Virus record (IMG/VR): IMGVR_UViG_3300044821_000131
Span: 62,001-126,000 of that record
DNA length: 64,000 nucleotides
Reading direction: 5' to 3' (one strand)
Source of the DNA: a virus
The translations under genes were made by a program, and so were the position numbers. Positions within the stretch are counted from its first letter, which is position 1; each line of letters starts with the position of its first letter. Positions 1,456-56,940 of this stretch are shown here, piece after piece. The notes beneath the pieces were generated by a model. The model was not told the origin of the DNA and searched no databases. It was given only the letters and a program-made list of their open reading frames with translations.

Positions 1456-1977
1456 ATGAGACACCAACTAAAGCTATGGCCTGAATATTTCAAGGCCGTA
1501 GCTACTGGAACGAGAACTTTCGAGGTGCGTGAAAATGACCGCAACTTCAAGGTGGGTGATGTGCTGGAACTCCGCGAATGGATACCGCAGCAAAATGATC
1601 CCGAATGTGAAATCCATTACTACCTCATGGGTGATGGTAACTGCACCTGTGGCACAAAAGGCAAATACACAGGGCGGCGCCTCGAATTTCGAGTGACCTA
1701 CATGACAGACTTTGGTCAACCGGACAATCAGGTAGTCATGGCTATTATCCCTAACATGCACAAAAATCAATGGCAATTAATCGAAACCGCTCCGCTTGAT
1801 AGCACAGTCATAGATATATGGTCTGCCAGCGAGGGCAGGCTGACAAACTATCGGCGCGTGAAACTGTCAAAAGACAACATCTTTTACGACCCTGACGAAT
1901 CTGGTGCCTGCTGCATCCGTGATGCAACTCATTGGATGTCGATACCGAATCCGCCGAACGCAAAGGAACGAATATGA
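1456..1977 (+). CDS. DUF3850 (ASCH-like) and DUF551-like fusion protein
   Basis: 173 aa with two recognisable parts. Residues 1-97 match the DUF3850/ASCH-like pattern: an N-terminal [10 protein letters not shown], then [20 protein letters not shown] and YTGR, a beta-barrel fold thought to bind RNA or nucleotides. Residues 101-173 match the DUF551 pattern, with W at the start and the terminal [10 protein letters not shown]. Both are common as separate small phage or prophage proteins. Their joining in one chain is the unusual point; molecular function is not established for either family. Confidence 0.75.
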
Positions 1978-2015
1978 AATGCCCTAAATGCAACCATGAA
2001 ATCCACGTGGCCTAA
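1974..2015 (+). CDS. micro-ORF encoding a CPKC peptide
   Basis: A 13-codon frame starts in the ATGA overlap with the stop of the DUF3850 gene and encodes [13 protein letters not shown]. It has the look of the start of a zinc-ribbon protein cut short. It may be a remnant, or simply a reinitiation product; no function can be claimed. Confidence 0.25.
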
Positions 2016-2049
2016 CAGTTAAATCTACCAAATTGGCGGGCATAGTCCT

Positions 2050-2247
2050 ATGGCATACATCTTGAATTATCGGGAGCCAGGCAAGCGTCCCGGAACGGAA
2101 CGCTGGGCCAAACGAAAAGTGGACTCGGTGCAAGAAGCAATTGAATGGATGAATAACAATAAAGAAATAGCCTTCCTGCCGGCATCAGTCGTGACGAACG
2201 CCTGGCGGCCATCCACGGTCGCCATATTGGGAGGAGTAAAATTCTAA
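2050..2247 (+). CDS. hypothetical protein
   Basis: Not recognised. 65 aa, basic, with one amphipathic helix in the middle and a short hydrophobic tail. Start ATG is preceded by A/T- and G-rich bases but no convincing ribosome binding site. Confidence 0.55.
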   Translation: MAYILNYREPGKRPGTERWAKRKVDSVQEAIEWMNNNKEIAFLPASVVTNAWRPSTVAILGGVKF

Positions 2248-2263
2248 ATAAAAACAACAAACT

Positions 2264-2485
2264 ATGGCTACTGGACGTGAATTAATCGGAGAAACGGTCA
2301 CGCTTAACGTAGGTGCCTATAAGGACCAACAGGGTGTCGTGAAAGCCTATGACCCCGGGCTGGACCAATACTGCATCGTCTGTGACGGATACCCCGACAT
2401 GTACGAACGTGGGGGTTTTCGCACGGACGCGGATCTTAACGGACGTCAAGGCGTGATGGACCGCGACTCGGACTTCTATGCTTGA
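2264..2485 (+). CDS. hypothetical protein, possible SH3/KOW-like barrel
   Basis: 73 aa. The pattern GETVTLNVGAY..QQGVVKAYDP resembles small KOW/SH3-like beta-barrels, but this is only a visual impression. It is preceded by an A-rich leader and overlaps the next gene by 8 bases. Confidence 0.55.
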   Translation: MATGRELIGETVTLNVGAYKDQQGVVKAYDPGLDQYCIVCDGYPDMYERGGFRTDADLNGRQGVMDRDSDFYA

Positions 2486-2780
2486 TCAACGTGATAAACC
2501 CGTGCCGATAGATCTCACCCTCTTGTTCTTTGCACCCAAGGAACTCAGCAAGCGTGAGATTGAATTGATTGATGCCTTGGACTGGTATCAGCCGGACCGT
2601 GAAGCACATCCCGGGCGTCAGACTATAATTCTGGTCAGTGAGCAGAAACTGCGCTCATGCCTGCGAGAGGATTTCGAGCCGTACGCTCTGGAGGACATTG
2701 GTCTCAAGCATCTTCGCGCAGTTGATTATATCGACCCAGTCTTACATCGTTGGGATCGGGATATGTTCTACCACGCATAA
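2478..2780 (+). CDS. hypothetical protein whose 3' end seeds a tandem repeat
   Basis: Not recognised. 100 aa. The last codons (RDMFYHA and stop) form the first copy of a 27-base tandem repeat that continues for about 2.7 more copies past the stop codon, so the end of this gene has been duplicated repeatedly. Confidence 0.6.
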   Translation: MLDQRDKPVPIDLTLLFFAPKELSKREIELIDALDWYQPDREAHPGRQTIILVSEQKLRSCLREDFEPYALEDIGLKHLRAVDYIDPVLHRWDRDMFYHA

Positions 2781-2859
2781 GTGCGCGATATGTTCTACCA
2801 CGCATAAGTGCGTGATATGTTCTACCACGCATAAGTGCGTGATATGTTCTACCACACCC
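2760..2859 (+). repeat. 27-bp tandem direct repeat, 3.7 copies
   Basis: Copies begin at 2760, 2787, 2814 and 2841 (last one partial). Each starts GATATGTTCTACCAC and each full copy carries the stop codon of the upstream gene. Copies are nearly identical (one C/T difference), so the duplication is recent. There are no spacers, so it is not CRISPR. Confidence 0.9.
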
Positions 2860-2864
2860 AAATT

Positions 2865-3128
2865 ATGAATGACACACACACGGAGACTCCGCTTCCGCTG
2901 GAACAGGAGTTTCCTCGACTGGCTGAGCACCTGCGCTTAATAGCCAACGATCAGCACCCGGTTGTACTTGGATTCTCAGTTGAGCCGAAGCACTTGCGGC
3001 TCGTTATGCGCGGTACTGAAAAGCATCCTCAGCCCTTTGTGCGGGTGATAGCTCACCAAATGCCCGGTCGAAACGACCCTTGTCCTTGTGGAAGTGGTGA
3101 GAAATTCAAAAGGTGCCATGGCCAATAA
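2865..3128 (+). CDS. SEC-C zinc-motif protein
   Basis: 87 aa from the ATG at 2865; a GTG at 2835 and an ATG at 2844, both inside the tandem repeat, would extend it in frame. The C-terminus [17 protein letters not shown] is a textbook SEC-C zinc motif, as at the end of SecA and in many stand-alone proteins. In SecA this element contacts SecB and ribosomes; here no partner can be named. Overlaps the next gene by 11 bases. Confidence 0.75.
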
Positions 3129-3312
3129 ATCACAGTCAGCACCCATATCCGCGCTGGGTGCTGACTGGCCTGACACCGGACGCACCTTTCCACCAGATGC
3201 GGCGCTGCATACCACTGTGGTGCATCCTAATTGGGTGGACTTATGTTGGTACGATTCGCTTCGGTCTGTGTGGATATATCTGTCAACATTACCAGTGGAA
3301 AAATTCAAATGA
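3118..3312 (+). CDS. hypothetical protein
   Basis: Not recognised. 64 aa, Trp-rich, starting inside the end of the SEC-C gene. The chosen start (MANKSQ) gives the usual short overlap; an upstream ATG at 3088 would overlap by 41 bases. Confidence 0.5.
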
Positions 3313-3321
3313 AAGGAAACG

Positions 3322-3558
3322 ATGGCAACAGTATGGTGTCCGAATTGTGCAGCCTTATCTATTAACGGTATCCCTTGTCATGAAACCGGCTGTCCGAATA
3401 GCGACCAGGCTTGGAAGTTTCGAAGCAAAGGCTTGATCGGAAAGTACTGCATCCCTAAAGGTGAAGATCCGGCTGCGTGGATGCATAAGGATTATAGGCG
3501 TCCAGCGAATCTTGAACAAGCTGCTAAGGCGTATGCCCGGCCTTCAAAAATATTATGA
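3322..3558 (+). CDS. small zinc-binding protein
   Basis: 78 aa. Residues 6-24 have the arrangement CPNC, then CHETGCPNS, a four-cysteine plus histidine knuckle that I recognise from many small phage proteins of unknown function. Overlaps the next gene by 4 bases (ATGA), suggesting coupled translation. Confidence 0.7.
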   Translation: MATVWCPNCAALSINGIPCHETGCPNSDQAWKFRSKGLIGKYCIPKGEDPAAWMHKDYRRPANLEQAAKAYARPSKIL

Positions 3559-3905
3559 AAAAACTAAAATGCTCGGTGTTCGTTACGTTACTCGCGCTAG
3601 CCGTCTGCGGCTGCGTTCAGTTCGGTCCGGTGCCTGTGTACGACGGTTATGCCGTACAAGGCACCCAAACACGACAAGTGCTCGTGGTCAACGCCCCATT
3701 GCACGTGGTGCTGTCGGAAACCCATGTGCTGCCTCTTGTTCCTGTGCCAGGACTTACTTGGATACCTGGTAACTGGGTTTGGCATTCGTATCGTGGGGTG
3801 CCCGAAAATCCATATTGCGGTCGCTACGGCTTCACCTACCCGTGGGGATGTGGCTACTACAACTATGCTCCGTCGTATTATGTACATGGTCAGCCGAGGT
3901 GGTGA
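3555..3905 (+). CDS. putative lipoprotein, Tyr/Trp-rich
   Basis: 116 aa. Basic n-region, hydrophobic stretch and a VCGC at residues 18-21 that can serve as a lipobox, so the mature protein would be lipid-anchored at the envelope. The mature part contains WIPGNWVW, resembling the YXWGXW repeat of bacterial lipoproteins, and ends in an aromatic Tyr/Pro-rich tail. Function unknown; it could alter the surface of the infected cell. Confidence 0.65.
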   Translation: MKKLKCSVFVTLLALAVCGCVQFGPVPVYDGYAVQGTQTRQVLVVNAPLHVVLSETHVLPLVPVPGLTWIPGNWVWHSYRGVPENPYCGRYGFTYPWGCGYYNYAPSYYVHGQPRW

Positions 3906-3952
3906 TTGAATCAGGTTGAGTTTTGGCGGGCTACGGGTTAATCTTCGGGCAA

Positions 3953-6868
3953 ATGTTCAAGGTTTCGAGAGTCGTCGATTCTGCCAGCCTAAAGGAAGCG
4001 CGTGCTATCATGCGCCGAATTTATGATGAACATCCTGACCATTGGCCCCATGGCCTTTCTGCCGATCACTTCGACGACGGGTGCTACCTGATCCGTGAGA
4101 AACGATCCTCCACTCCAGTTGGATTTGCCGGCTTCCAGCGGCGTTGGGAATTCGATGGAGACTCCCCGAAACGCGTTGGCTTCTATTCCATAGGCATCCT
4201 TCCGGAGTACCGCCAGAACGGGTTCGCGAAGGAAGCGATCGGCAAATTGATCTCGATGAAGTCTGCCGGTGTAGATCGAGTCAAAGCCCTAATCGTTAAA
4301 GGTAACACACCGTCCTTGAGACTGGCATCATCCTTGGGCGTGCCCGCTATCGTCAAGTCGGCTACGACGACTCAAACGGCCCAGCGTCATCCGTTCGGCC
4401 TCAAGGATGTAGGGGCGATCGGGGGCGCAGCACTTCTAGGTGACACTTGGAATCAAAGTCGTAAGGCGGTCGGATATGCAAACAAGATGACCGCGCTGCA
4501 TGAGGCTCTAGCCAAACGGAAGTTCGCCGACATGCAGGATCCGGACGCGTTCTACGGTCTGATGCATGATTACGGAACCATGGCGCAGGGGGCATTGAAG
4601 ACCCGGGTGTTTGGTGTCCCGTTTCATACCATCGGCAGCGCTTTCCCGTTATCGCGTATTTCCACCGGTGACCAGACTAAAAAGTTGTCAATCGCTCAGT
4701 TGTTGAATCATTACAGCGGCAATAGGCCACTGGATCCAGAAACGACCAAGAGTTTGGAGGATGCCTACGGCCATTACGCCGGGTATTCCCGAAATCCTTC
4801 CGAGATTCAATTCCGGGAGTTCACCACCGGTAATTCCATAGGTAGCGCCCATCAGATTACCGGAGGCATGAGAACGTCCGGTATTACCCCGGAAAAGTGG
4901 GGTGAGATGCTCAAGTCATCGGATCCAATGAAAGCGCTCATGTCCCATATCAAATTGTCTCCATACCGGAAGGTCGCGTTGCGGGACATGTACGAGAACT
5001 TCGGAAAGGGACTTTTGACTGATAATCAGCCCGCAGCCGAATTCTTTGCCGGCAAGATGCCCGTCAATCCTTTCGGTGGTGGCCCCGCAGCCTACGGACG
5101 TGGTATCATAGGCGCCGCGCGTCAGCTTCGACCCCTAGCCGGTGCTGGCGCACTAGGCCTTGCCGGCTATGAGGCTTATAGGCGCACGAAGAAAGCCAGC
5201 GCCCAGTTACAGCGCAAAGATCGTGAAACGGCAGCGGCGGGCCTGTTGGGAGGGGCGGGTCTGGCTTCCAGTGCTCGTCGTTATCGTCCCTCCAATCTCA
5301 TTTTATCAACTGGCGGGCATCTTAAGGAGCCGGTCGCTTGGCTGGATACTGGCGCCGGTCACATCACTCCGGCGCGAGCGATGGCCGAATTACTTCGTCA
5401 GCACCCGGCAGTACAGTCGGGAGATTTCAGCGTAGGCGAGGCATACCGTACAATGAATGAACCTTACCTGAAGGAGTGGCATCAGGGTAAAGGCATGTTG
5501 GGTCCAGAGAATTCGAAGACGCTGTCCCCAATCTCCAACTTGGTACACGGGTTCTCCGATAAGTTCATAAATCCATTCACTGTAAAAGGAATGGAAAAGT
5601 CCAAACCTCACGCTCTAATGATGCTGGAACACGGCATGGGCGGAAATCAGTTTACATTTGGCGGTGCGATTCGTAATCCGCAATTCACTTGGCACCCGAA
5701 AGGTGGCGTGGGCTTCGTCTCGGACTTTGTCCATGACCCGTCTGATATTGCCCAAAAAGACACACTTTTGAATGTGGGCGGCTATCTGAATAAGATGCCT
5801 GCCATTACTTTCGGCAAGCCGCAGTCTCCGAACAAGTATGGACCTCTTTTAAAGCCTCTGATCAATACTTCGGTGCATCCGTTGTTGCAGCAGAAGGTCA
5901 TCGATAACGCGCGCGAGTGGCTGGTAGGTAAACGCAATCCGGCAGATGTATGGCACAATTTAGCGTCCGGAATGAAGGCCACAGATCCTGAAGGCTCGGC
6001 GCGACTTACGGCGGCGGTCCAGACTGGTAAAAAGATTGTTACGGTTTCGGGATCGTCCCGTGGTGATCTGGTAGCCCACCGTGCGGCCGATCTACAGCGT
6101 GAGTTAAGAGCCAATGGCTTGGACGGTCATTTTCAGGTCGTGGCGGCGTTGGGTAACGCCCATAATCATCCACAAGATCTATCTCATCGGCTACTGGATC
6201 ATTATCCCGAAGTGGTGCGGATTGGACACACTGCGAATTATCCTGGTGCCGACATGACGGATCTTGTGCATGCCTCGGATTTCCATTGGGGTTCAACCGG
6301 GGCTTCGGCTCACGCTGAAGCGATGTTGTCGGCTACCCCGACCGCGTTCGTAACCCGGTTCAATGATTCGCCAGAAGGACCTGGTGGTCTTGATAATCAG
6401 CTACGGGAAATGCAAGCCCGTGGATTGGACACATCACATTTCGAGCATATGCGTTCGAAGGGCTACAATCTCGATAGTTGGAATCGTGGCCTGATCAATC
6501 ACATAAAGACTAACATGGCGGGCAAAGAGTTGGGGGTAGAGTCGGCCAATAATGCCAAAGAACTGCTGCCGTTCTTACGGCGCATGTCTGGTGGCGAAAT
6601 CATGCGGTATGCGGATCGGGCGTCGCATCAACTTAACGCCACAGAATTTGAGCGTCGACGCTTATCGGACGCTCTGATCGAACATGCTGCCGTGCTTCGG
6701 TCGGGTGCTGCGAATGCCCGGCTGATGCGTTTGGGTGCAGGTGGTGCGTTAGCGGGTGCGGGTTTATATGCGTTGGGCAAGTCACAGATGGACCGGCCTC
6801 CGGTTCAAGGTCGATTTGCCGACGCGATTCAGAGATTCTCAAACTTATTTCATCAATATCAAAGATAA
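3953..6868 (+). CDS. GNAT acetyltransferase-like and GT-B glycosyltransferase-like fusion
   Basis: About 972 aa from the ATG at 3953 (a TTG at 3923 gives 981). Residues 1-130 look like a GNAT N-acetyltransferase: a beta strand SIGILPEYR followed by QNGFAKEAIG, the acetyl-CoA pyrophosphate loop, then NTPSLRLASSLG. The middle (about 130-430) is helical with no known domain, followed by a Gly/Ala-rich segment. Residues about 435-830 resemble a GT-B enzyme of the MurG/MGDG-synthase type (GT28): an early GAGHITPARAMAE and a late ASDFHWGSTGASAHAEAM that matches the sugar-nucleotide binding loop. Ends in another Gly/Ala-rich helix. Ends on the ATG of the next gene. Size and Gly-rich helices also fit a virion protein. 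Confidence 0.6.
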   Translation: MFKVSRVVDSASLKEARAIMRRIYDEHPDHWPHGLSADHFDDGCYLIREKRSSTPVGFAGFQRRWEFDGDSPKRVGFYSIGILPEYRQNGFAKEAIGKLISMKSAGVDRVKALIVKGNTPSLRLASSLGVPAIVKSATTTQTAQRHPFGLKDVGAIGGAALLGDTWNQSRKAVGYANKMTALHEALAKRKFADMQDPDAFYGLMHDYGTMAQGALKTRVFGVPFHTIGSAFPLSRISTGDQTKKLSIAQLLNHYSGNRPLDPETTKSLEDAYGHYAGYSRNPSEIQFREFTTGNSIGSAHQITGGMRTSGITPEKWGEMLKSSDPMKALMSHIKLSPYRKVALRDMYENFGKGLLTDNQPAAEFFAGKMPVNPFGGGPAAYGRGIIGAARQLRPLAGAGALGLAGYEAYRRTKKASAQLQRKDRETAAAGLLGGAGLASSARRYRPSNLILSTGGHLKEPVAWLDTGAGHITPARAMAELLRQHPAVQSGDFSVGEAYRTMNEPYLKEWHQGKGMLGPENSKTLSPISNLVHGFSDKFINPFTVKGMEKSKPHALMMLEHGMGGNQFTFGGAIRNPQFTWHPKGGVGFVSDFVHDPSDIAQKDTLLNVGGYLNKMPAITFGKPQSPNKYGPLLKPLINTSVHPLLQQKVIDNAREWLVGKRNPADVWHNLASGMKATDPEGSARLTAAVQTGKKIVTVSGSSRGDLVAHRAADLQRELRANGLDGHFQVVAALGNAHNHPQDLSHRLLDHYPEVVRIGHTANYPGADMTDLVHASDFHWGSTGASAHAEAMLSATPTAFVTRFNDSPEGPGGLDNQLREMQARGLDTSHFEHMRSKGYNLDSWNRGLINHIKTNMAGKELGVESANNAKELLPFLRRMSGGEIMRYADRASHQLNATEFERRRLSDALIEHAAVLRSGAANARLMRLGAGGALAGAGLYALGKSQMDRPPVQGRFADAIQRFSNLFHQYQR

Positions 6869-7527
6869 TGTCCGAAACAATCTACGTTGGTCTGTTTCAA
6901 GGTAATAATAAAAAGTCCCCATTGGTAAAATATAATGTTCAAGGCGATATACAAACCATCGCGGCGCTGGCACACAGGACGTTGCGAGGTATATTATTGC
7001 TTGAAGCTGATGGGTGCTTTGATGATTTGACAATAGGGGTTCATCCAATGTCACAGGATACGCTCGACATCATTGAACCTTTGCATCAATTAATGCACTG
7101 TCTTTGGACTGTGCGGGCGGATTACGACACATTCGGAAGTAAAATCGCTAATGTCGAGTTTATAGTCGCACTGGTAGAATTTAACGTTATGCTGTTAGGC
7201 TCCAAGATTGGTCGTACGGGTAACGCTTCCACGGACAGGTGGACGCGTCATGAGATTTGGCAGCGCTTGTGTTGTTTCAATATGTCGAATGCCAACAGAC
7301 CGTCGGAGTCGGAGTTAACGGCGGACTCATATCAAAATATCGTCGAGTTGTTGCGTGACCTCTATGTTCTGTACGCTGAAGCTCCGATTGATGAGTACAT
7401 TAGCAATAAGTTCATATACGATCCCATCAAACCAGACATGGAAATCTTTGTCTCCAATAAGAAAGAACTGGCTTGGACAGCCAAGGCCTTTAAATCGAAC
7501 AAAGCTTTAAATCGAACAAAGCTTTAA
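6868..7527 (+). CDS. hypothetical protein
   Basis: Not recognised. 219 aa, mixed alpha/beta look, no signal peptide. Its last 13 codons lie inside a 17-bp tandem repeat, so the C-terminus (KSNKALNRTKL) is a product of repeat expansion and probably not functional. The start shares a base with the stop of the upstream gene (TAATG). Confidence 0.65.
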   Translation: MSETIYVGLFQGNNKKSPLVKYNVQGDIQTIAALAHRTLRGILLLEADGCFDDLTIGVHPMSQDTLDIIEPLHQLMHCLWTVRADYDTFGSKIANVEFIVALVEFNVMLLGSKIGRTGNASTDRWTRHEIWQRLCCFNMSNANRPSESELTADSYQNIVELLRDLYVLYAEAPIDEYISNKFIYDPIKPDMEIFVSNKKELAWTAKAFKSNKALNRTKL

Positions 7528-7562
7528 ATCGAACAAAGCTTTAAATCGAACAAAGCTTTAAC
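7489..7562 (+). repeat. 17-bp tandem direct repeat, 4.4 copies
   Basis: Units TTTAAATCGAACAAAGC begin at 7489, 7506, 7523 and 7540, with six bases of a fifth copy at 7557. The unit length is not a multiple of three, so each copy shifts the frame and one supplies the stop of the upstream gene. Copies are identical, so expansion is recent. A weak hairpin (ACCGT...ACGGT) follows near 7575-7593. Confidence 0.9.
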
Positions 7563-7618
7563 CGAATAAATCATTACCGTCTTTAAATACGGTACTTCTG
7601 TCAGTTAAATCAAAATTT

Positions 7619-7981
7619 ATGAAAACCCAGGCTAGTTATTCGTATGTGATACCGGTGGAAAGATTTACCAAACTGTTCGACACGGCCTCGGCCAAACGCA
7701 AGTTCGAGAAGCTTTTGGACGACGGTTGGGAATCCAAGGACGAAATTTACGAAGTATTGAAGGAACTATTTCGACGGCTGAAGTTTCCGCCGATGGACGG
7801 TGACATTTTAATTTCGGATGAGGAACAGGCACCCGAGTTGCAGGATGAGTCTACTTGCGGCATGTTTGCGTGTTTTGCCACTGAGACCTTGTTCTTAATG
7901 TTCGATCGTCCGGCTTACACTGAAATGGTGAATCGTGGGGTCAAACCAGAACTTCGTCTGTGGACCACGTTCGCTTATTAA
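7619..7981 (+). CDS. hypothetical protein
   Basis: Not recognised. 120 aa, acidic middle, starting after an AAAATTT leader with no Shine-Dalgarno. No known motif. Confidence 0.6.
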   Translation: MKTQASYSYVIPVERFTKLFDTASAKRKFEKLLDDGWESKDEIYEVLKELFRRLKFPPMDGDILISDEEQAPELQDESTCGMFACFATETLFLMFDRPAYTEMVNRGVKPELRLWTTFAY

Positions 7982-7998
7982 CAACAAAATATAACACT

Positions 7999-8268
7999 AT
8001 GGCTGATAGAGATGTTCGAGATGTAAAGAAAGAGTGGGCGGCTAAGTTTCAGCCGCTGGTTGGACGTAAAATCAAAACCGTGCGTTGGATGTATAACGAC
8101 GAGCTCGTGGCCACTGGTTGGTCCAAAGCCCCAATCGTACTCGTGCTTGATGATGATACTCTGTTGTATCCCAGCATGGACGACGAAGGTAACGACGCTG
8201 GCGCACTCTTCACTCAAGAGGGGCGTAAAACTAAAGGGCTGGAGCCAGTTGCCCCGGTTATCAGATGA
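7999..8268 (+). CDS. hypothetical protein
   Basis: Not recognised. 89 aa from the ATG after an A-rich leader (aacaacaaaatataacact). Contains a DDDTLLYPSMDDEG acidic strand-turn segment. Its stop overlaps the next start (ATGA). Confidence 0.6.
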   Translation: MADRDVRDVKKEWAAKFQPLVGRKIKTVRWMYNDELVATGWSKAPIVLVLDDDTLLYPSMDDEGNDAGALFTQEGRKTKGLEPVAPVIR

Positions 8269-8486
8269 GTCGAAAAAAGTCTGCTCTTGCCGGCACAGAT
8301 TTCCGTCTTGTTCGTAAGACAAAGAACTTTGTATGGCTTCGTTGGTGCGGTACTGGACGGTGGCACGGAAAAACCATCAGAGTTACTCGTTTGTTGTTCA
8401 ACACGATCTTTCGCATTATATCAGATAAAAATATTGAAGTTAAATCACCATGGCAAATTACTATACAGAGTTCAGTTTCACAGTAG
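8265..8486 (+). CDS. small basic hypothetical protein
   Basis: 73 aa, basic, coupled by an ATGA overlap to the gene before. It overlaps the following gene by 37 bases, so its real end or reality is less certain. No recognisable motif. Confidence 0.4.
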   Translation: MSRKKSALAGTDFRLVRKTKNFVWLRWCGTGRWHGKTIRVTRLLFNTIFRIISDKNIEVKSPWQITIQSSVSQ

Positions 8487-8899
8487 CACTGCCCAACAAG
8501 GAAGCACTGGTGGAAGCCTTGGATCTATATCGCCGATGTGGCGAGGACGAGTCTACCATTCCTGAAGAGCTCGAATCCGTTCGAGAACAGGGTGTGGGTT
8601 TTCATTTGGAGGAGGAGTCCAACGAGCAGTCCAACGAGCAGTATCCGCCTACGCTTTGGTTCCACTCCGAAGATGGTGGGAATATCGATTCTGTCTGCAT
8701 GTTCATTCAGTATCTGTTGAAGAAAAACGACATGAAGAACGCGGTCGGCTTTGAATACGCGCTCACTTGCAGCAAGCCCCGTATAGATGCTTTTGGTGGT
8801 GGCGCATGTATGATCACCGCGGACAAAATTGATGGTTTCAATTCTGGCGTTTGGTTGCTGGAGAGTCTGGGGCATCTGGGGCCTTGTCGAAACACATGA
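8450..8899 (+). CDS. conserved hypothetical protein
   Basis: 149 aa. The order of motifs (MANYYTEFS at the start, LWFHSEDGG near residue 70, a terminal CSKPRIDAFGGGA) resembles a small family I know only as hypothetical proteins in phage and environmental genomes. Residues 57-66 carry a direct SNEQ repeat. Stop overlaps the next start (ATGA). Confidence 0.65.
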   Translation: MANYYTEFSFTVALPNKEALVEALDLYRRCGEDESTIPEELESVREQGVGFHLEEESNEQSNEQYPPTLWFHSEDGGNIDSVCMFIQYLLKKNDMKNAVGFEYALTCSKPRIDAFGGGACMITADKIDGFNSGVWLLESLGHLGPCRNT

Positions 8900-9378
8900 G
8901 CTGTAAATCGTATTTTCTTCATGGTGGCAAAGTGGTGAAGTTCTTGGAAGACAACGATGACCTTGGTTGTCTTTGTACTTTTCCGCACGACGATGTAAGC
9001 ACATTGGACGCCGAACGCGTGCGTTCCTTAGCCTACCTCGGAGCTGCTGTCGTGTTACTGCAACGCGGACTCATTGAACATGGGTATCTACCAGATTGTC
9101 TGTCAGATTGGATACGTCGGGAGATCGATGCCAAGTTGGCCGGGCAGCCTTTACCCAACGTTATTACGCACGAAACCCCGTGCTACGTCGCGCTCAAGAA
9201 ACCCGGAGATTGCTTCTACACGTGGTATGATCGTAGCGCAATACTCGATAATCCTACGGATATTCCTACGAAGGAGGAAAGTAAATACGTCACTCGATTG
9301 CAATACAAGGCTAGTGGTGAATTAATCTCTCGTGAGGACGGGGCCAGAGCCGAAGTCTGGAAACCAATGGCGCCTTAA
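8896..9378 (+). CDS. hypothetical protein
   Basis: Not recognised. 160 aa from the ATG coupled to the preceding stop; this start is preferred over in-frame codons upstream because of the ATGA overlap. Cys-containing but with no regular zinc spacing. Confidence 0.6.
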   Translation: MSCKSYFLHGGKVVKFLEDNDDLGCLCTFPHDDVSTLDAERVRSLAYLGAAVVLLQRGLIEHGYLPDCLSDWIRREIDAKLAGQPLPNVITHETPCYVALKKPGDCFYTWYDRSAILDNPTDIPTKEESKYVTRLQYKASGELISREDGARAEVWKPMAP

Positions 9379-32987: not shown

Positions 32988-33356
32988 ATGAGCACAGCCA
33001 CACAAGTAAAACGCCGCCGCGGTACGACTGCCCAACACTCCACTTTCACCGGTGCCCTCGGGGAAATCACCGTTGATACCGACATCAAAACCATACGTGT
33101 CCACGATGGCATCCAAGCCGGTGGCTACGTGCTTCTACGTCTCAATGCTGATGGCAGCATCCCTCTTGGTCAGTTCACTGTATCGGCGGATGGCACGACG
33201 ATTACCAGCAGTAGTGGTCAGTCGAACGTGCGGTGGAAAAATGGTCAGTTTCAGATTTTCGATGAGGGCGACGCCACGGCGACACCATCGACGCCATGGC
33301 GTATTCTTGGATCGAACAACGGCTCGATTGTGCTGGCCGGACCGGTGGCCACTTAA
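32988..33356 (+). CDS. fibre-type protein with Mtd_N-like N-terminal domain
   Basis: 122 aa. Residues 5-50 (QVKRRRGTTAQHSTFTGALGE, VDTDIKTIRVHDG, AGGYVLL) match the N-terminal domain of major tropism determinants and many tail fibres, which anchors fibres to the particle. The short C-terminal part is beta-rich. No reverse transcriptase is near, so a diversity-generating system is not indicated. Confidence 0.75.
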   Translation: MSTATQVKRRRGTTAQHSTFTGALGEITVDTDIKTIRVHDGIQAGGYVLLRLNADGSIPLGQFTVSADGTTITSSSGQSNVRWKNGQFQIFDEGDATATPSTPWRILGSNNGSIVLAGPVAT

Positions 33357-41467: not shown

Positions 41468-42331
41468 GTGGCCTATTGCGATCTATTGGCTCTGGAAGGC
41501 GGCGGCGTGCGTGGTATCATGCATTGCATCGTCTTAGCCGAACTGGAGCGGCGTACCGGCAAGTCCTGTTACCAACTGTTCAAGCGTATTGCTGGGACGA
41601 GCGTGGGTAGCATTGTAGGGGCGGCATTGGCTATGGGAGTGCCGGCGTCAGAGATTATCAAGTTCTTTACCAAAGATGCCTCCGTAATATTCAGCAAGCC
41701 GTGGTGGGACATCTCGGGAGCTTGGGGTCCGAAGTTCTCCTTGGCGCCGCTCGTAGCTTCCCTACAAACACTCTTAGGTAACGCGAAATTGTCTGGTTGT
41801 AAAACGGATTTCATGGCGATAGCCTTCGACTGCCACGCGGGCGATCCGGTCAAGTTCAAATCGTGGGACATTCAGACCGACTATATGCTCTGGCAGATCT
41901 GCGCGGGATCTGCTGCGGCACAGACTTACTTCCCGGCATTTCCACTGGATGACATGATGCTCATTGACGGCGGCAACACGTCGTCGAACGCCCCGGATGT
42001 CAGTCTGTTTATGAATTCCCACCGTAAGTTTGGGGCTGAGAACATTCGTATGTTGTCATTGGGCACCGGCGATTCTCCTTGGGACATGGATTGGAAGGCG
42101 ATGCAGTCTCCCAGTCCTCTACGCGCGCTGGCGGCCACGGTGAAGATCGAATTCGAGGCATCCTCTGATGACGTGGTGGAAGATGCACAAGCGGGCATGG
42201 GTCCGGCCTACTACAGGATTCAGCCGCCACTATCCACGAATCCTGGGCTGAGTGATGCCAGTCCGGCCACGTTGGCGATGCTTACGGAGGCCGCGCAGAA
42301 GGTAACAGCCGGACCGATCTTCGTTTATTAG
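41468..42331 (+). CDS. patatin-like phospholipase
   Basis: 287 aa, GTG start. All three patatin motifs are present: oxyanion loop GGGVRG (11-16), nucleophile elbow GTSVG (Ser45), and catalytic Asp in DGG (D167). Patatins hydrolyse acyl ester bonds of phospholipids. No signal peptide is seen, so the enzyme would act from the cytoplasm, for example in lysis or membrane remodelling. It is followed by a new promoter. Confidence 0.88.
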   Translation: MAYCDLLALEGGGVRGIMHCIVLAELERRTGKSCYQLFKRIAGTSVGSIVGAALAMGVPASEIIKFFTKDASVIFSKPWWDISGAWGPKFSLAPLVASLQTLLGNAKLSGCKTDFMAIAFDCHAGDPVKFKSWDIQTDYMLWQICAGSAAAQTYFPAFPLDDMMLIDGGNTSSNAPDVSLFMNSHRKFGAENIRMLSLGTGDSPWDMDWKAMQSPSPLRALAATVKIEFEASSDDVVEDAQAGMGPAYYRIQPPLSTNPGLSDASPATLAMLTEAAQKVTAGPIFVY

Positions 42332-43253: not shown

Positions 43254-43583
43254 ATGGGTCTCAAAATTAAGACCGGCATCAAGTCGGTGACGACAGGTCG
43301 GGTGGTATCGGTACAAGAATGGCATCAGTTGTTAGCGACGGCGCGTCAGTCACCGGTGGAGACGCCGGGTCCGGAGTGGAAGTCGGTACCACAGCTTCTG
43401 GAAGAGTCTTTAGCCGCGGGTCTGAAGTGTGAGAAGTCGACGCTAAAGCATAGAATGGTCGGGTTGGTACGCAGGCCGAATAGTCCAGTCGAGCGCAAGA
43501 AGTTTCGAGTCGAGCTGCCTTCGGGTAAGTTACAGTCGGTCTGGCATTATCGGATTATCGAACCGGCGAAAAATAAATCTTGA
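43254..43583 (+). CDS. possible winged-helix protein
   Basis: 109 aa, basic. Middle residues (WKSVPQLLEESLAAGLKCEKSTLKHRMVGLVR) fit a helix-turn-helix, followed by a strand pair ending HYRI. It could bind DNA. It ends its transcription unit before a strong terminator. Confidence 0.5.
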   Translation: MGLKIKTGIKSVTTGRVVSVQEWHQLLATARQSPVETPGPEWKSVPQLLEESLAAGLKCEKSTLKHRMVGLVRRPNSPVERKKFRVELPSGKLQSVWHYRIIEPAKNKS

Positions 43584-43642
43584 TTTTAGTTTGTTGGGTG
43601 ATAGTGTGTGTTTTGTTGTTTGTATCGTGTTTGTCTGGTTGG

Positions 43643-43683
43643 GTCCGCCGCAGTTTTTGTTGATTTTCTGCGGCGGACTTTTT
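43643..43683 (+). terminator. rho-independent terminator
   Basis: Perfect 11-pair stem GTCCGCCGCAG/CTGCGGCGGAC with a 14-base loop, followed by TTTTTCTTT. It separates the phosphoesterase unit from the RNAP fusion gene. Confidence 0.92.
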
Positions 43684-43723
43684 CTTTCCATCCGTTGCAT
43701 TCATTAGTACATTTGCCTTGTAT

Positions 43724-45766
43724 ATGACCGATCCAACCACGTCTTGGGAAAACGCTGCATTCATTAAATTGGCGCGTCAGGGATCTATCGTGTTTCTGCC
43801 AACGTCCGACGGAAACTACTTGCTGCAGCGCGAGACCAACGGCAACCTGCGCCCACCTGGTGGTGGCAAAGACCGCAGCGACAAAGGGCTGTTCGACTGC
43901 ATTGTGCGCGAGATCCACGAAGAGTTCGGCCTTGATCCGTTGGAAATCAAAAAGAAACTCAAATTCCTCGGGTTTGAATACAGGAAACCTTTCTGGGGAA
44001 ACGCCGTATTCGAGCTGCGACAGCACGGTCTCAAACCCGGCGTCTATCAAGCCAGTAATGATCCCAGTGAGAAAATTCACCTGGTACGTGCCTCCGTTGA
44101 CCATGACGACTACGTAGGTCCCTATCCCCATAAACTGCTCTCGGATGCGGCCAAGGAGAAGGGTGATGACCTTTTCAAATCGGCGGAAGATAAATCCAAA
44201 GAAGATCGGGAAATCATTGCGGTCGACTTCGATGGCGTTTTGGCGAAGCACATGGAAAATCAGACCTCGCTTGGTGAACCGGTGCCCGCCATGATCGACA
44301 AAGTGCAATCTTGGATCGCTGAGGGTAAGCATGTCGTAATCTTCACTGCCCGGGCGCATGATCCGAAGAATGTACCGGCCATCAAGGCTTGGATCAAGGA
44401 GCACGGTTTGGGGGATCTCGATGTTACCAACCGAAAGATTCCGGAGATGTCGGTGTTCTATGACGACAAGGCGGTGCAGATTCGGAAGAATACAGGCAAA
44501 GTGGCACGGTCGATAATCGTCTGCCCCGTGGACGATTTGGACAAATCCGCGGCAGTCACCCCGCAAGTCACCCCGCAAGTCACCCCGCAAGTCACCCCGC
44601 AAGTCACCCCGCAAGTCACCCCGCAAGTCGCGAGTCCCACCACCGGTCCCGAAGCCATCGGACTTGCTTTGAGCAATCTCGATCTTAATCAAGAGGAGGT
44701 GCGGGCCAATGCAGAGATCAAACGCGGGCTGAAGACGAAACGCGGCTCGGCCGTGAAGCGTCTCGGATTCATTCAAGGATTCCGTCGGACCGGTGTACAC
44801 CCGAAAGATCTGATGCTGAAACAGGTGCCCGTCATTCCGCCACAATTCCGGCCATTCTCTGTCGCAGGCGACGTATTCATTCCCGGTGATGCCAACGAAC
44901 TCTATCGCGATCTGATCAACATGGTCGGCGTGCACAAAGAGCTTCAACGTAATTTGGGTGAAGGTGGTGCAGCCTCAAATAAATTGAGGATATATGATGC
45001 GATGCGCGCCGTGTATGGTTACGGGGAACCAACGGCGCCGAAGACTAAGGAGCGTGGAGTATCAGGCTTTCTCAAGAAGCTGACGGGTAGCAATCCTAAA
45101 TTCAGCTATTCGAACCGGCATCTATTGAGTCGTGATATGGATTTTGTGGGACGTGGTGTCGTCGGTGTCGATCCTGATATGAATTTGGACGAGATTGGAG
45201 TTCCGGAGGAAATGGCGTGGAAGATTTATGCCCCGTATATTCAGCGCCGTTTAGTGCGCAGTGGCATGGGCCTTGAGGCTGCAGTGCGATCTGTTCGTGA
45301 TAAGAACGAACAAGCACACAGGATGTTGCTGGAGGAATCTAAAGAACGTCCCGTCATGTATTCTCGTAGCCCGGCTTGGCATAAATTTTCGGTGCTGGGA
45401 GGCTATCCGAAAATTATTCCTGGTAACACTGTTATGGTTAATCCGTTGGTTACAAGCGGCTTAGGTATGGATTTTGATGGCGACACCTGTAATATTCATG
45501 TTCCGGCACTTGCTGACGCGGTGGATGACGTCAAGAATAAATTGATGCCATCGAGGATGTTATTTTCGACCAAAGGTCGGGATCAGGTGATGCCTACGCC
45601 CAAGCAGGAAATGATTCTCGGTATGGCCTCGGCGCAGCAACGTCCTTCAAAGCGTCCGCCGGTATCTTTTCCTGACGAGGCCTCGGCACTAGCGGCCATC
45701 CATAACGGTTCGGTGCGTTTAAGTGATGAGGTTCAGATTGGTAAGGCAAAGCCGATCATAGCATGA
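43724..45766 (+). CDS. Nudix - HAD - RNA polymerase beta-prime N-terminal fusion
   Basis: 680 aa. Residues 20-140: Nudix hydrolase, box G48-x5-K54-x7-R62-E-x-x-E-E-x-G-L70; the first Glu is Lys, but the REx2EE metal ligands are intact. Residues 160-270: HAD phosphatase, nucleophile D168 in VDFDGV, motif II IFTAR, acids in YDD. Residues 277-300: VTPQ repeated six times. Residues about 315-680: RNAP beta-prime catalytic part, with VIPPQFRPF, a DFVGRGVVGVDP segment, MYSRSPAWHK and the invariant Mg site DFDGD (583-587, all three Asp kept). Phi-x-K-x-A motifs occur at 13-17, 150-154 and 272-276, exactly at domain borders. TTG 43718 could add two residues. Overlaps the next gene (ATGA). Confidence 0.9.
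   Translation: MTDPTTSWENAAFIKLARQGSIVFLPTSDGNYLLQRETNGNLRPPGGGKDRSDKGLFDCIVREIHEEFGLDPLEIKKKLKFLGFEYRKPFWGNAVFELRQHGLKPGVYQASNDPSEKIHLVRASVDHDDYVGPYPHKLLSDAAKEKGDDLFKSAEDKSKEDREIIAVDFDGVLAKHMENQTSLGEPVPAMIDKVQSWIAEGKHVVIFTARAHDPKNVPAIKAWIKEHGLGDLDVTNRKIPEMSVFYDDKAVQIRKNTGKVARSIIVCPVDDLDKSAAVTPQVTPQVTPQVTPQVTPQVTPQVASPTTGPEAIGLALSNLDLNQEEVRANAEIKRGLKTKRGSAVKRLGFIQGFRRTGVHPKDLMLKQVPVIPPQFRPFSVAGDVFIPGDANELYRDLINMVGVHKELQRNLGEGGAASNKLRIYDAMRAVYGYGEPTAPKTKERGVSGFLKKLTGSNPKFSYSNRHLLSRDMDFVGRGVVGVDPDMNLDEIGVPEEMAWKIYAPYIQRRLVRSGMGLEAAVRSVRDKNEQAHRMLLEESKERPVMYSRSPAWHKFSVLGGYPKIIPGNTVMVNPLVTSGLGMDFDGDTCNIHVPALADAVDDVKNKLMPSRMLFSTKGRDQVMPTPKQEMILGMASAQQRPSKRPPVSFPDEASALAAIHNGSVRLSDEVQIGKAKPIIA
44555..44626 (+). 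repeat. 12-bp coding repeat x6 (VTPQ linker)
   Basis: Six identical units GTCACCCCGCAA encode the VTPQ linker between the HAD and RNAP domains. Perfect identity indicates recent expansion and tolerance of linker length. Confidence 0.97.
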
Positions 45767-46365
45767 AAGAAGTTGAAAAATTACAGTTGGCCAAGGTCGC
45801 GGTAAACTTCCGCGGTGTGCCGGTCTATTCCAATCCTTTTCGATTTCTGGGGCGCATAGCCGATCAGCTTCAAGTTAATCCTTTTCTTCGTACTGCCGAC
45901 AAGGTGTTGCCTGGCACAACCGCGCAAGTTGTACACGAGTTGAGAAATGATTTGTTTAATCCGAATGTGCGTGGCATGTCGGCTGGAGGTGCGATATACA
46001 AACAACCCGGTTCACCGAACGGCAGGAGTACGATTGCTCACGAGTGGTTTCACAATGCGGTGCCGCTGGTGGGTCGCAGCGAGACACTGGCGCGCTTCTA
46101 TGGTGGTTATGCTCAGCCTCGTAATGTTGGGTTGTTACCGAGATTGCAGAGTGGTTTGAATTCGGTGAAGTCCTATTATAGACGTGACATCGATCAATAC
46201 AGTCCGATCATGGCTTGGTGGAAACAGCGACAAGCTATTTCTGGTCGGTCGATGCCCCTCGATAATCTCAACCGCTCGCTCTCTAACCCGGTTACCTTCA
46301 GGCCGCGTAACCCTGCTGCGGTATCGAATAATCTTGCTGCACAGCGAAATGACATGTTAGGCTGA
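45763..46365 (+). CDS. HExxH metallopeptidase-like protein with KxA tag
   Basis: 200 aa. Tag QLAKVA at K11/A13. Residues 91-107 hold HEWFH (93-97) and a later Glu (E107) in a helix context that fits a zinc metalloprotease. The rest is basic and Pro/Asn-rich, unlike a known family. It overlaps the RNAP fusion gene by 4 bases, so it is made with it. It could process the tagged proteins, but this is only a possibility. Confidence 0.55.
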   Translation: MKEVEKLQLAKVAVNFRGVPVYSNPFRFLGRIADQLQVNPFLRTADKVLPGTTAQVVHELRNDLFNPNVRGMSAGGAIYKQPGSPNGRSTIAHEWFHNAVPLVGRSETLARFYGGYAQPRNVGLLPRLQSGLNSVKSYYRRDIDQYSPIMAWWKQRQAISGRSMPLDNLNRSLSNPVTFRPRNPAAVSNNLAAQRNDMLG

Positions 46366-46366
46366 A

Positions 46367-46807
46367 TTGATGATGAAAGTGGCCCAGATACTCCGTCTCA
46401 GCAAGTGTGCCCATGAACTCACACCAATCAACGTGGTGCGAAAATTTCCGATGCGCGCCGTGGCACTTTTGGGTGGTACTGCTTTGGCCGCTCCCTTACT
46501 GCCTTGGAATACCGCAGGTGCCATAAAAGATCGAATGCAAGGTACAGAACATGAAGATCAGCTATCCCAGTCCATTGCCACTGATACTGGTCGCGGCATT
46601 GGTACGGCATTAGGTGCAGGAGCTGTTCGTGGACTTGGTGACACGTGGCATTTGCCGAAGACGAGTCCGTTATTCAACTTGGCTCTGGTGTTAGGAGGTG
46701 CTGGGGTTGGTGGTTTTCTGGGGCACCGGCAGGGTAAAATGATCGGACAAGACTTGTTTCCGGGATCGTTGTCCGATAGAATTCATCGCGCAGCCAATCG
46801 TTTTTAA
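46367..46807 (+). CDS. glycine-zipper membrane-type protein with KxA tag
   Basis: 146 aa. Tag RLSKCA (K13/A15). Two Gly/Ala-rich hydrophobic stretches (about 28-45 and 95-117, the second LVLGGAGVGGFLGHRQGKMIG) resemble glycine-zipper membrane segments. Might be an ejected or membrane-inserting virion protein. Confidence 0.55.
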   Translation: MMMKVAQILRLSKCAHELTPINVVRKFPMRAVALLGGTALAAPLLPWNTAGAIKDRMQGTEHEDQLSQSIATDTGRGIGTALGAGAVRGLGDTWHLPKTSPLFNLALVLGGAGVGGFLGHRQGKMIGQDLFPGSLSDRIHRAANRF

Positions 46808-46811
46808 ATTT

Positions 46812-47456
46812 ATGCCATTCGACACTCAAGTCTTCAAAGAACTGATGACCTCGTTATCAGAACTCCGCGCCGATCTGAAAAAACAAGCGTTCGTCCCGAT
46901 GCCTGGGGATATGCCGCCGGGTGGTGGTCAAGGCGGCCCTCCGCAGGGCGGACCTGGCGGACCTCCTCCGGGAATGGATCCTTCACAGATGCAGGGTGGT
47001 GGCGGGCCTCCTCCGGGAATGGACCCGTCGCAGATGCAGGGTGGTGGTGATCCTTCTCAAGGTGGTGGCGGACCTCCGGGAATGCCGCCTGGCGCCGCGC
47101 CTGGTGGTTCTGGTGACCCGGCTGGAGGTTCTGATCCCTATGGTCCTGTATTCGAATCCATTCTGCAGGGCATGCAGCAGTTGATGGAAACTGTGCAACA
47201 GATGGGTCAGGAGTTTGATCAGCGCCTGGCAAAATCTGAGCAGGAGTTGCAACAGATGACGCAGGTACAGCAGCAGACTGATGATCAGATGAAGCAGATT
47301 CAGCCATTGGTGCAGCAGATGCTGCAGCCGGCACCGATGGACGGTTCAATTCAGGGTCAAGCTCCGCAAGGGGCCGGCGCGGATCAAGGTATGCTGCCGG
47401 ATCAGAGCGGTGGACCTCCGATGTCGGCGCCGGGTGAAATGGGAATGATGCAATGA
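46812..47456 (+). CDS. Gly/Pro-rich disordered plus coiled-coil protein with KxA tag
   Basis: 214 aa. Tag DLKKQA (K24/A26). Residues about 35-100 are GGPPQG/GMDPSQMQGG repeats and must be disordered. Residues about 115-175 are a Gln-rich coiled coil. A second Gly/Pro-rich tail follows. Scaffold- or tail-like virion role is possible; no family recognised. Overlaps the next gene by 4 bases. Confidence 0.6.
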   Translation: MPFDTQVFKELMTSLSELRADLKKQAFVPMPGDMPPGGGQGGPPQGGPGGPPPGMDPSQMQGGGGPPPGMDPSQMQGGGDPSQGGGGPPGMPPGAAPGGSGDPAGGSDPYGPVFESILQGMQQLMETVQQMGQEFDQRLAKSEQELQQMTQVQQQTDDQMKQIQPLVQQMLQPAPMDGSIQGQAPQGAGADQGMLPDQSGGPPMSAPGEMGMMQ

Positions 47457-55095: not shown

Positions 55096-56940
55096 ATGCG
55101 TGCGATTGATCTATACGTCAACTCAGTGTTGCCACCCGATCTTCGGTCTAACAATCGTGTGCTCAACAAGAAGAATATCGAGTCGGTACTGGCCGACGTA
55201 GCTCGACGTTATCCTGAGCAGTACGCTGACATATCAAAGTCGCTTTCGGACATCGGGCGCAAAGCGGCTTACCTACAAGGAGAAACTCTTAATTTATCGG
55301 ACTTTCAACCGGTACTGGATCGAGACGGTTTGCTGAAGCAAATGGATCATGAGGTGCGAGCGTCGGATGCCGAGACTAAAAATCCTGACGAGCGTGAAAA
55401 GAAGCGACTCATTATCTGGGCCAAGTATTCTACAGCCATTGAGAAATCCACTTCCGAAAACGCGCGACATACTAATCTCGGACGTTCGGTGACTTCTGGG
55501 GCGCGCGGTAACGCCCTGCAATTGAAAGCAATTTTGTCCACGCCGGCGCTCTATACTGATTACAAAGACAGAGTTATTCCGATGTTTATCAGACATGGTT
55601 TCGGGGAAGGTCTGCGTCCCGCTGAATACTTGGCCTCGTCTTTCGGTACACGTCGCTCTGTGATCTCAACCAAGAGCAGCACGGCCCGCGGCGGAGACTT
55701 CATGAAGCAGATTATAGCGGCTACCACACCGATAATCGTCACCGAAGATGATTGTGGTACGAGTAACGGTCTCGACTTCGATGTTACCGATCATGAGATT
55801 CAAGGTCGAGTGCTGGCCAAGGAAGCGGGTGGAGTGGCGGTTGGTACGACAATCGACAAACATGTAATACAAGCTTTACATAAAGCGGGTGTGAAGCGAA
55901 TCATTGCGCGAAGTCCGATGACGTGTACTTCGAAGAGTGGAATCTGTTCTCATTGTTTGGGCACTCTGCCGTCCGGACATTTTGCACCCCGAGGATACAC
56001 CGCCGGGACCACGGCCGCTCAGGCAGTCGGAGAACCAGTTGTGTCGGGAGCTCTGGCGGCCAAGCACACCGGCGGATCTTTTAAAGGTTCACAAAAACAA
56101 TTTGCTGGATTCGACACGATCACGCAGCTCGTGCAATCGCCGGAAACATTTCCGAATAAGGCTCCGTTGGCCGAGACCTCCGGTAAGGTCGATAGTATCG
56201 AAGATGCACCGCAAGGTGGCAAGTACGTCACGATAGGTGAAAATAAACATTATCTGTTGCCCGATTTCGCCCCGTTGGTCAAAGTGGGTGATACTGTCGA
56301 AGCCGGCACGCCTCTTAGCGAGGGCGTGGCTGATGTGGCCGATGTGGTACGCCTGCGCGGTCTGGGCGAGGGCCGCCGATATTATGTGGATCGCCTGAAA
56401 CAAGCTATGGAAGAATCAGGGGCGGGTCACCCGAGCAAATTAAATCTGGAACTGATCGCCCGCGGGACCTTAGACCACGTCAAAATCGACGATCCTGACG
56501 GCTTGGGCGGGTACCTTCCCGATGACGTCGTGTCCTACGGAACAATGTCCAATTCGTACGTGCAACCCAAATCGGCCACCATGATGAGTCCCGACCAAGC
56601 CGTAGATAAATACTTGCACGCCCCGGTATTGCACTTCACTATCGGTACCAAAATGACACCGAAGATGATAGATCGGTTGAAAAGTGCTGGTATTAAAGGA
56701 GTTGTAGCATCCGGAGAAGAACAGCCGAAATTCCATCCGGAGATGGTGCGGCTGCGCGCGGCGGCGCACAACAATCCTGACTGGTTGGCTCGGATGCACT
56801 CGAGTTATTTGATGAGCAATCTGGATGAATCGGCATCCCGGGGCAGGGACACGGACACTATGGAGAACACGCATTTTGCGCCCAGGCTTGCAATCGGCAA
56901 GAACTTTGGCAAAAATATTGACACGACTGGAAAGTTCTAA
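55096..56940 (+). CDS. RNA polymerase beta-prime subunit, C-terminal part
   Basis: 614 aa. NKKNIESVLADVARRYP (24-40), SGARGNALQLKAI (134-146) and VTEDDCGTSNG (215-225) match the beta-prime secondary channel and bridge regions. C220, C277, C284 and C287 are the four zinc ligands equal to E. coli C814, C888, C895 and C898. TAAQAVGEP...KHTGG (306-327) is the bridge-helix/trigger-loop start ([21 protein letters not shown]). It lacks the N-terminal catalytic Asp triad, which is in the 43724 gene. Ends in a shared base with the next gene (TAATG). Confidence 0.9.
   Translation: MRAIDLYVNSVLPPDLRSNNRVLNKKNIESVLADVARRYPEQYADISKSLSDIGRKAAYLQGETLNLSDFQPVLDRDGLLKQMDHEVRASDAETKNPDEREKKRLIIWAKYSTAIEKSTSENARHTNLGRSVTSGARGNALQLKAILSTPALYTDYKDRVIPMFIRHGFGEGLRPAEYLASSFGTRRSVISTKSSTARGGDFMKQIIAATTPIIVTEDDCGTSNGLDFDVTDHEIQGRVLAKEAGGVAVGTTIDKHVIQALHKAGVKRIIARSPMTCTSKSGICSHCLGTLPSGHFAPRGYTAGTTAAQAVGEPVVSGALAAKHTGGSFKGSQKQFAGFDTITQLVQSPETFPNKAPLAETSGKVDSIEDAPQGGKYVTIGENKHYLLPDFAPLVKVGDTVEAGTPLSEGVADVADVVRLRGLGEGRRYYVDRLKQAMEESGAGHPSKLNLELIARGTLDHVKIDDPDGLGGYLPDDVVSYGTMSNSYVQPKSATMMSPDQAVDKYLHAPVLHFTIGTKMTPKMIDRLKSAGIKGVVASGEEQPKFHPEMVRLRAAAHNNPDWLARMHSSYLMSNLDESASRGRDTDTMENTHFAPRLAIGKNFGKNIDTTGKF

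Follow-up and report, generated by a model that had tools for sequence, protein, structure and literature searches.

A gene that joins two putative phosphohydrolases to a piece of a multisubunit RNA polymerase (RNAP) was analysed in a 64,000-nucleotide stretch of viral DNA (hereafter the window), which comprises positions 62,001–126,000 of the 204-kb IMG/VR virus record IMGVR_UViG_3300044821_000131. The product of this fusion gene is a candidate polyvalent-type chain, in which a Nudix domain, a HAD domain and, behind a linker of six VTPQ repeats, the middle piece of RNAP beta-prime form one polypeptide (Table 1). In relatives, the same Nudix-HAD unit sits on another end of the RNAP, and enzymes are exchanged between the attachment sites. 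We lean towards a reading in which a virion-type RNAP would serve as a co-delivered polyvalent carrier of exchangeable phosphohydrolases, without commitment to a substrate.

The frame is open from TTG 43718 or ATG 43724 to 45766 (682 codons), the ATG being the more likely start. Codon scores were positive in frame and negative in both shifted frames of the plus strand in all five segments of the gene, the linker included; in the Nudix segment, the reverse strand scored +0.075 compared with +0.107 in frame. This frame, open and coding throughout, confirmed the original prediction that a Nudix box, the DxD site of a HAD domain, the VTPQ repeats and the DFDGD site of RNAP lie in one chain, and gave no sign of the sequencing or assembly error that the prediction had named as a possible refutation. 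The ATG lacks a Shine-Dalgarno-like sequence, as is usual for the other window genes compared; such sequences are mostly absent from gene starts in the window, many of which are A/T-rich immediately upstream. An 11-base repeat, TGCATTCATTA, flanks the start at 43696 and 43756. The terminator-like hairpin sits approximately 44 bases 5′ of the ATG and was absent from a consensus terminator scan, whose loop limit was 8.

The Nudix domain was recognized by Pfam (PF00293, residues 25–90) with 24.1 bits against a cut-off of 21.1 (E 3.9e-5), and its structural model matched MutT-type enzymes (Z approximately 7). The consensus of the Nudix box is Gx5Ex7REUxEExGU. In the fusion gene, the box (43859–43930) reads GGGKDRSDKGLFDCIVREIHEEFG, in which REIHEEFGL is intact and Lys replaces the first Glu, as had been read correctly before; the fold and core motif fit Nudix hydrolases, but the full consensus does not. 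Across the four aligned rows (the window and relatives of 41–48% identity), this position is occupied by K, R or A, and the replacement, being common to all four, is taken as a family trait.

For the HAD domain, residues 157–257 matched phrog_1238 (E 3.7e-15) and residues 156–279 matched the polynucleotide-kinase family phrog_415 (E 1e-5) in PHROGs, while a local HAD hidden Markov model, which includes the window itself, scored the fusion gene at 2.8e-50. HAD phosphatases are marked by DxD, a Ser/Thr and an acidic motif IV. All three are present here, in the motifs DFDGVLA, IFTARA and YDDKA, and the Asp, Thr and Asp-Asp columns were invariant among 22 aligned rows. The best structural match of the HAD model was the T4 Pnkp 3′ phosphatase (Z 7.7, root-mean-square deviation 2.8 over 91). 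A sequence search of the PDB with the Nudix-HAD part returned weak rows only; the top rows, ETV6 constructs, were judged to be chance matches.

The remainder of the chain is a piece of a double-psi-barrel RNAP, with a DxDGD site, homology to cellular beta-prime and a complete set of partners. Residues 309–674 matched positions 171–540 of the beta-prime-like phrog_25354 (E 5.2e-47), and the family profile of the middle piece matched bacterial RpoC 179–548 with 245 bits. Pfam detected RNA_pol_Rpb1_2 at residues 539–606 (E 9.2e-20) and, below the cut-off, Rpb1_1 at residues 351–402 (E 9.5e-5). The AlphaFold model of the middle piece was confident (most blocks 76–97, a few lower) and matched E. 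coli beta-prime at approximately 171–574 with Z 22, the large root-mean-square deviation arising from flexible parts. Confidence was low in the Nudix-HAD part of the full-length model, because the alignment held no relatives there.

The five RNAP pieces of this phage, including two beta pieces outside the window (betaN1 and betaN2), were aligned with the 2006-residue single-chain RNAP of the viral locus L001, and matched its residues 49–252, 247–398, 462–1080, 1084–1439 and 1438–1904. The L001 stretch past 398 is matched by the part of betaN2 beyond its intein, and nothing is missing at the beta-prime joints. Judged by this tiling, the RNAP of this phage is complete, in five polypeptides. The 639-residue beta piece carries GDKLAFRSGGK at residue 319, with two lysines at what we take to be the expected positions, and in the trigger loop the His is kept whereas the Arg and Met are changed. 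The piece preceding the middle piece extends no further than RpoC 64 and the middle piece begins at approximately RpoC 179; the clamp-head and zinc region seems either to be missing or to have diverged beyond recognition. Searches with phrog_25354 and phrog_24349 found one RNAP set only in the record, which may be incomplete. Jumbo phages of the phiKZ/AR9 type have two RNAP sets, one virion and one non-virion.

The original prediction had assigned the catalytic part of beta-prime to the fusion. This holds for the DFDGD piece, but the bridge helix and trigger loop are encoded by the separate gene at 55096–56940. Beta-prime is split after the double-psi-barrel domain, and the middle piece stops shortly past DFDGD, as in the phages Arash and D69. 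The prediction was likewise right about the three-part chain but incomplete as an account of the enzyme, which is made in five pieces and carries a 2H phosphoesterase on a second one. This domain forms the C-terminal end of betaN1 (PF13563, 1.8e-9; HxT motifs at 385 and 466); a match to the Acb1 family (7.7e-4) was below the cut-off. The betaN2 piece contains an intein by sequence (LAGLIDADG 0.0016, below the cut-off; Hint 0.078). Split inteins at the RNAP breaks were considered and set aside, as the intein is in betaN2 only and no Hint was reported for the other four pieces.

Table 1. Features of the fusion gene and of the RNAP pieces (positions in the window unless stated otherwise)
Feature	Position	Strand	Evidence
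Terminator-like hairpin, then T run	43641..43680	+	dG −24.3 kcal/mol, z −5.8 vs shuffles
Fusion gene, 682 aa: Nudix, HAD, VTPQ linker, RNAP beta-prime middle piece	43718..45766	+	Open frame, Pfam, PHROGs, codon scores
Nudix domain, residues 15–150	43760..44167	+	PF00293 above cut-off, 41–48% identical relatives, fold match
Short HAD phosphatase, PNKP 3′-phosphatase-like, residues 162–265	44201..44512	+	phrog_1238, phrog_415, local HMM, T4 Pnkp structure match
Six exact 12-bp repeats (GTCACCCCGCAA) coding VTPQ x6, predicted disordered linker	44555..44626	+	Sequence, AlphaFold
RNAP beta-prime middle piece (bacterial RpoC ~179–548)	44642..45763	+	Pfam, phrog_25354, structure match
DFDGD metal site	45470–45484	+	Motif reading
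RNAP beta C-terminal piece and beta-prime start, 639 aa	30605..32524	+	PF00562 4.2e-52; L001 chain 462–1080
RNAP beta-prime C-terminal piece, 614 aa, bridge helix and trigger loop region	55096..56940	+	phrog_25354 613–1098; PF04998; L001 1438–1904
Two further RNAP beta pieces, outside the window	record positions 43441–44985 and 45712–47163		Profile searches of record

To place the fusion among relatives, two RNAP scans of viral contigs (80 loci each, partly overlapping) were combined with the window into a set of 262 frames from 159 loci, 228 of them distinct. Among 136 distinct beta-prime middle pieces with an N-terminal end, 130 were fused to beta and six were not, namely those of the window, L022, L023, L024, L102 and L076, the last of which starts at a contig end. 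The N-terminal extension measures 308 residues in the window, and 8, 95, 17 and 164 residues in L022, L023, L024 and L102, respectively. HAD profile matches among the 262 frames were confined to the window and L077/L078. As far as these sequences reach, only this genome has Nudix-HAD placed on beta-prime.

The same unit was found at another RNAP end. Scanning with four HAD domains returned 80 loci, which held 81 HAD frames, 68 of them shorter than 200 residues; one of the longer frames, L209:3054-5387, encodes betaN1 followed by Nudix and HAD, and its Nudix-HAD unit is 41% identical to that of the window over 263 residues (185 bits), with the order and the start unchanged. A scan with the two-row Nudix-HAD unit matched 117 stretches, five of which were confirmed, at four loci. 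Two contigs (L209/L284) carry the L209 protein, with Nudix-HAD at the C-terminal end of betaN1, and L282/L283 encode a chain of 1125–1126 residues composed of betaN1 and the Nudix half. All four loci, from two lineages, have the unit or its Nudix half fused to betaN1, and Nudix-HAD joined to RNAP in L209/L284, albeit to betaN1 and not to beta-prime, speaks against homologues always encoding the parts separately, the other refutation that the prediction had foreseen. The frames of L282 and L283 (8429-11806) also have a long C-terminal tail, in which one stretch is Cys-rich and one segment hydrophobic. In genome_contigs, none of 181 pattern matches to the unit was confirmed, and the matches to the N-terminal part listed in 18 phage records covered the HAD half, none the Nudix half. 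A viral scan with the single sequence of the N-terminal part gave 11 stretches, and one with the whole betaN1-2H protein gave one stretch; none was confirmed.

At the C-terminal end of betaN1, the attached enzyme varies between close relatives: it is 2H in this genome, an inorganic pyrophosphatase (InPase) in the sister G004 (4.8e-51) and nothing in G002. In a betaN1 tree of 41 rows chosen from 151, the window, G004, G002, L209 and L282 form one clade (support 100/100); alignments with misaligned rows (A6, A7 and apparently A8) were left out of the models. Further enzymes were seen in more distant relatives. In L077 (4901-6343; also L078), a SET-HAD-2H insert lies between betaN1 and betaN2, with SET and 2H above the Pfam cut-offs and HAD recognized by phrog_1238 (7.6e-27), and in L083 a Cys-rich stretch with a below-cut-off 2H occupies the same place. 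L115 (IMGVR_UViG_3300028797_000120, 1737-9005) encodes a 2423-residue frame with InPase, LysM and phage tail lysozyme ahead of RNAP beta-beta-prime, and the region after beta-prime C in L036 (17154-19454) gave P-loop kinase-like and acylphosphatase matches. Of ten RNAP extensions scanned with profiles, those of L099, L030, L065 and L025 had no match, and those of L083, L026, L068 and L042 had sub-threshold matches only. The beta-prime C pieces of L036, L041, L025, L065 and L042 have several hundred extra residues at the C-terminal end. Very many intein-like inserts were seen in the RNAP genes of L022–L179, several per frame in places, some seemingly split over two genes (e.g. L042, L063 and L161). 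Two groups of records were not used as phage relatives: Acinetobacter phage MD-2021a, whose annotated rpoC lies among ribosomal genes and looks bacterial, and unannotated Listeria, Staphylococcus and Enterococcus 'phage' records, which look like bacterial rpoC by match alone.

In the mechanism that we propose, the phage would assemble one complete bacterial-type RNAP from its five polypeptides, package it in the virion and inject it along with the DNA. In this RNAP family, free ends and a single loop would form attachment slots for exchangeable small enzymes; here, the slot at the clamp end of beta-prime would hold the Nudix-HAD unit on its flexible linker, and that at the end of betaN1 the 2H phosphoesterase. 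Entering the cell with the polymerase, the enzymes could immediately process nucleotides or RNA ends, to the possible benefit of the infection: Nudix would act on a diphosphate bond, 2H on a 2′,3′-cyclic phosphate or similar linkage, and HAD on a terminal phosphate. For the large-phage lineage as a whole, we see an even balance for and against the virion RNAP being a general docking platform, the ends and one loop of which hold swappable Nudix, HAD, 2H and InPase domains, plus SET and lysozyme, such that transcription and counter-defence or nucleotide/RNA-end clean-up would be delivered as one machine.

Reports of packaging come from one relative only, Salmonella phage Arash, where the homologous RNAP is abundant in the virion. 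According to the available part of that report, no virion protein yielded more spectra than gp206 (beta and beta-prime middle), with 3516, and gp216 yielded 1210; carry-over from strong expression was regarded as possible by the authors (PMC10585845). By this analogy, the RNAP of the present phage is most likely packaged in its virion. The tail lysozyme on the L115 RNAP chain also supports packaging, and both lend indirect support to the co-packaging role that the original prediction had suggested. With regard to substrates, the part of PMC7824862 that we could consult describes a jumbo-phage RNA repair in which a 2H enzyme and then a 3′-phosphatase heal RNA ends with 2′,3′-cyclic phosphate; by analogy, 2H followed by the 3′-phosphatase-like HAD would heal RNA ends here. 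Just as well, 2H could serve counter-signalling by acting on defence nucleotides, an action proposed for 2H domains in the accessible part of PMC5512222.

Several points weigh against the carrier. The HAD-to-beta-prime joint was seen in one contig, at a tandem repeat, and the window alone has Nudix-HAD on beta-prime, the beta-prime pieces of the five closest loci (L022, L023/L046, L024 and L102) being without it; as a unique case in the sample, it argues against a constant role at this position. The first Glu of the Nudix box is replaced, in the relatives too, which could alter activity. The Nudix of L209 is below the Pfam cut-off (18.8 vs 21.1), and both domains match known folds to a modest degree (Nudix and HAD, Z below 8). 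Each scan used two short conserved patterns, and divergent stand-alone copies may escape them. The record yielded no RNA ligase to models that also missed two ligases named for Arash and so made an insensitive control; this result weakens a full RNA-repair role.

The hydrolases might instead serve transcription itself, by removing pyrophosphate, damaged nucleoside triphosphates, or 5′-di/triphosphate or capped RNA ends beside the polymerase. In the viral scan, the Nudix-HAD unit never occurred apart from RNAP, the sister G004 has InPase in the betaN1 slot, and Foldseek rows for the Nudix part include the RNA-decapping enzymes RppH and NUDT16, although any Nudix fold would yield these; pyrophosphate clearing has been proposed for phage InPase domains (PMC5512222, in the part available). 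Yet the same RNAP family bears lysozyme, LysM and SET, which have no obvious role in transcription, the unit is on different RNAP ends in different phages, and the long flexible linker, disordered in the AlphaFold model, fixes no position. We regard this explanation as unlikely, though not negligible.

A more sceptical account holds that inteins and insertions split a longer ancestral RNAP gene and that the new ends then gained neighbouring genes by fusion, with no selection for the combination. Inteins and split genes are indeed abundant in this RNAP family, and in the closest relatives the beta-prime end bears a different sequence or none. Chance does not predict, however, that four kinds of phosphohydrolase (Nudix, HAD, 2H and InPase) recur, and relatives carry the same two-domain unit, its main catalytic residues preserved, at a second RNAP end; we give gene breakage a small likelihood. 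Smaller again is that of an assembly artefact, in which the 12-bp repeat array became the joint between two genes of different molecules, or between genes in different frames. The junction does lie at six exact repeats in a single contig, but the 12-bp repeat is confined to this one place in the 204-kb record, all segments have comparable in-frame codon scores, and the genes 3′ of the fusion gene are syntenic with L102; we consider such an artefact very improbable.

Among neighbouring genes, a Major tropism determinant N-terminal domain (32988–33356; PF18454, 7.3e-14) is encoded close to the RNAP beta piece and a patatin-like phospholipase (41468–42331; PF01734, 2.8e-22) near the fusion gene. 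A Gly/Pro-rich repeat protein is encoded 3′ of the fusion gene (46812–47456), and a protein of IGN/YVTIG-type hexapeptide repeats adjoins betaN2 (L200 6222-6899, at approximately 47.2 kb of the record).

If the carrier reading is true, a virion RNAP would be seen as an injected cargo carrier, and pyrophosphate, RNA ends and nucleotide signals would become concrete substrates to consider in early infection. The HD domain on the AR9 virion RNAP would turn from a curiosity into part of a pattern, in which phages have repeatedly attached enzymes that cut phosphates to the first polymerase to read their genome. A five-piece RNAP with exchangeable ends also shows which breaks and additions are tolerated by a multisubunit RNAP.

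Known systems resemble the present one in part. Salmonella phage Arash (gp206/gp216) and Vibrio phage D69 (_0261/_0264) have a homologous RNAP of 28–32% identity, with beta-prime split after DFDGD, but carry beta and the beta-prime middle in one chain, without Nudix, HAD or 2H. Tunturiibacter phage Tunturi_5 gp273 combines HAD and Nudix in one phage chain but places HAD before Nudix, adds ART and GNAT domains and has no RNAP match. Polyvalent proteins combine at least two effector-type domains in a single injected chain. As described in the available part of PMC5512222, they are phage chains of several domains for which injection is predicted, and their parts include InPase, 2H, lysozyme and N4-like RNAP; the only RNAP part named there is N4-like, whereas the present carrier is a double-psi-barrel multisubunit RNAP. 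In the open-licence literature searched, we found no report of Nudix, HAD, 2H or InPase fused to a multisubunit RNAP. To this extent, the original prediction that no such fusion was known stands, but HD-RNAP fusions have been published for AR9-type phages: the portions available of two reports place an HD phosphohydrolase domain on the beta C-terminal piece of the virion RNAP in the Bacillus phages AR9, PBS1 and vB_BpuM_BpSp (PMC7598289, PMC7824862). This is the closest precedent, and a phosphohydrolase on RNAP is as a kind already published. Both cases have a phosphohydrolase in frame with a split subunit of a multisubunit phage RNAP, and beta-prime split after the double-psi-barrel domain. 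They differ in the enzyme, HD as opposed to Nudix-HAD or 2H, and in the subunit that bears it; compared with the AR9-type fusion as described there, the enzymes of the present family vary among close relatives and occupy several ends of the RNAP.
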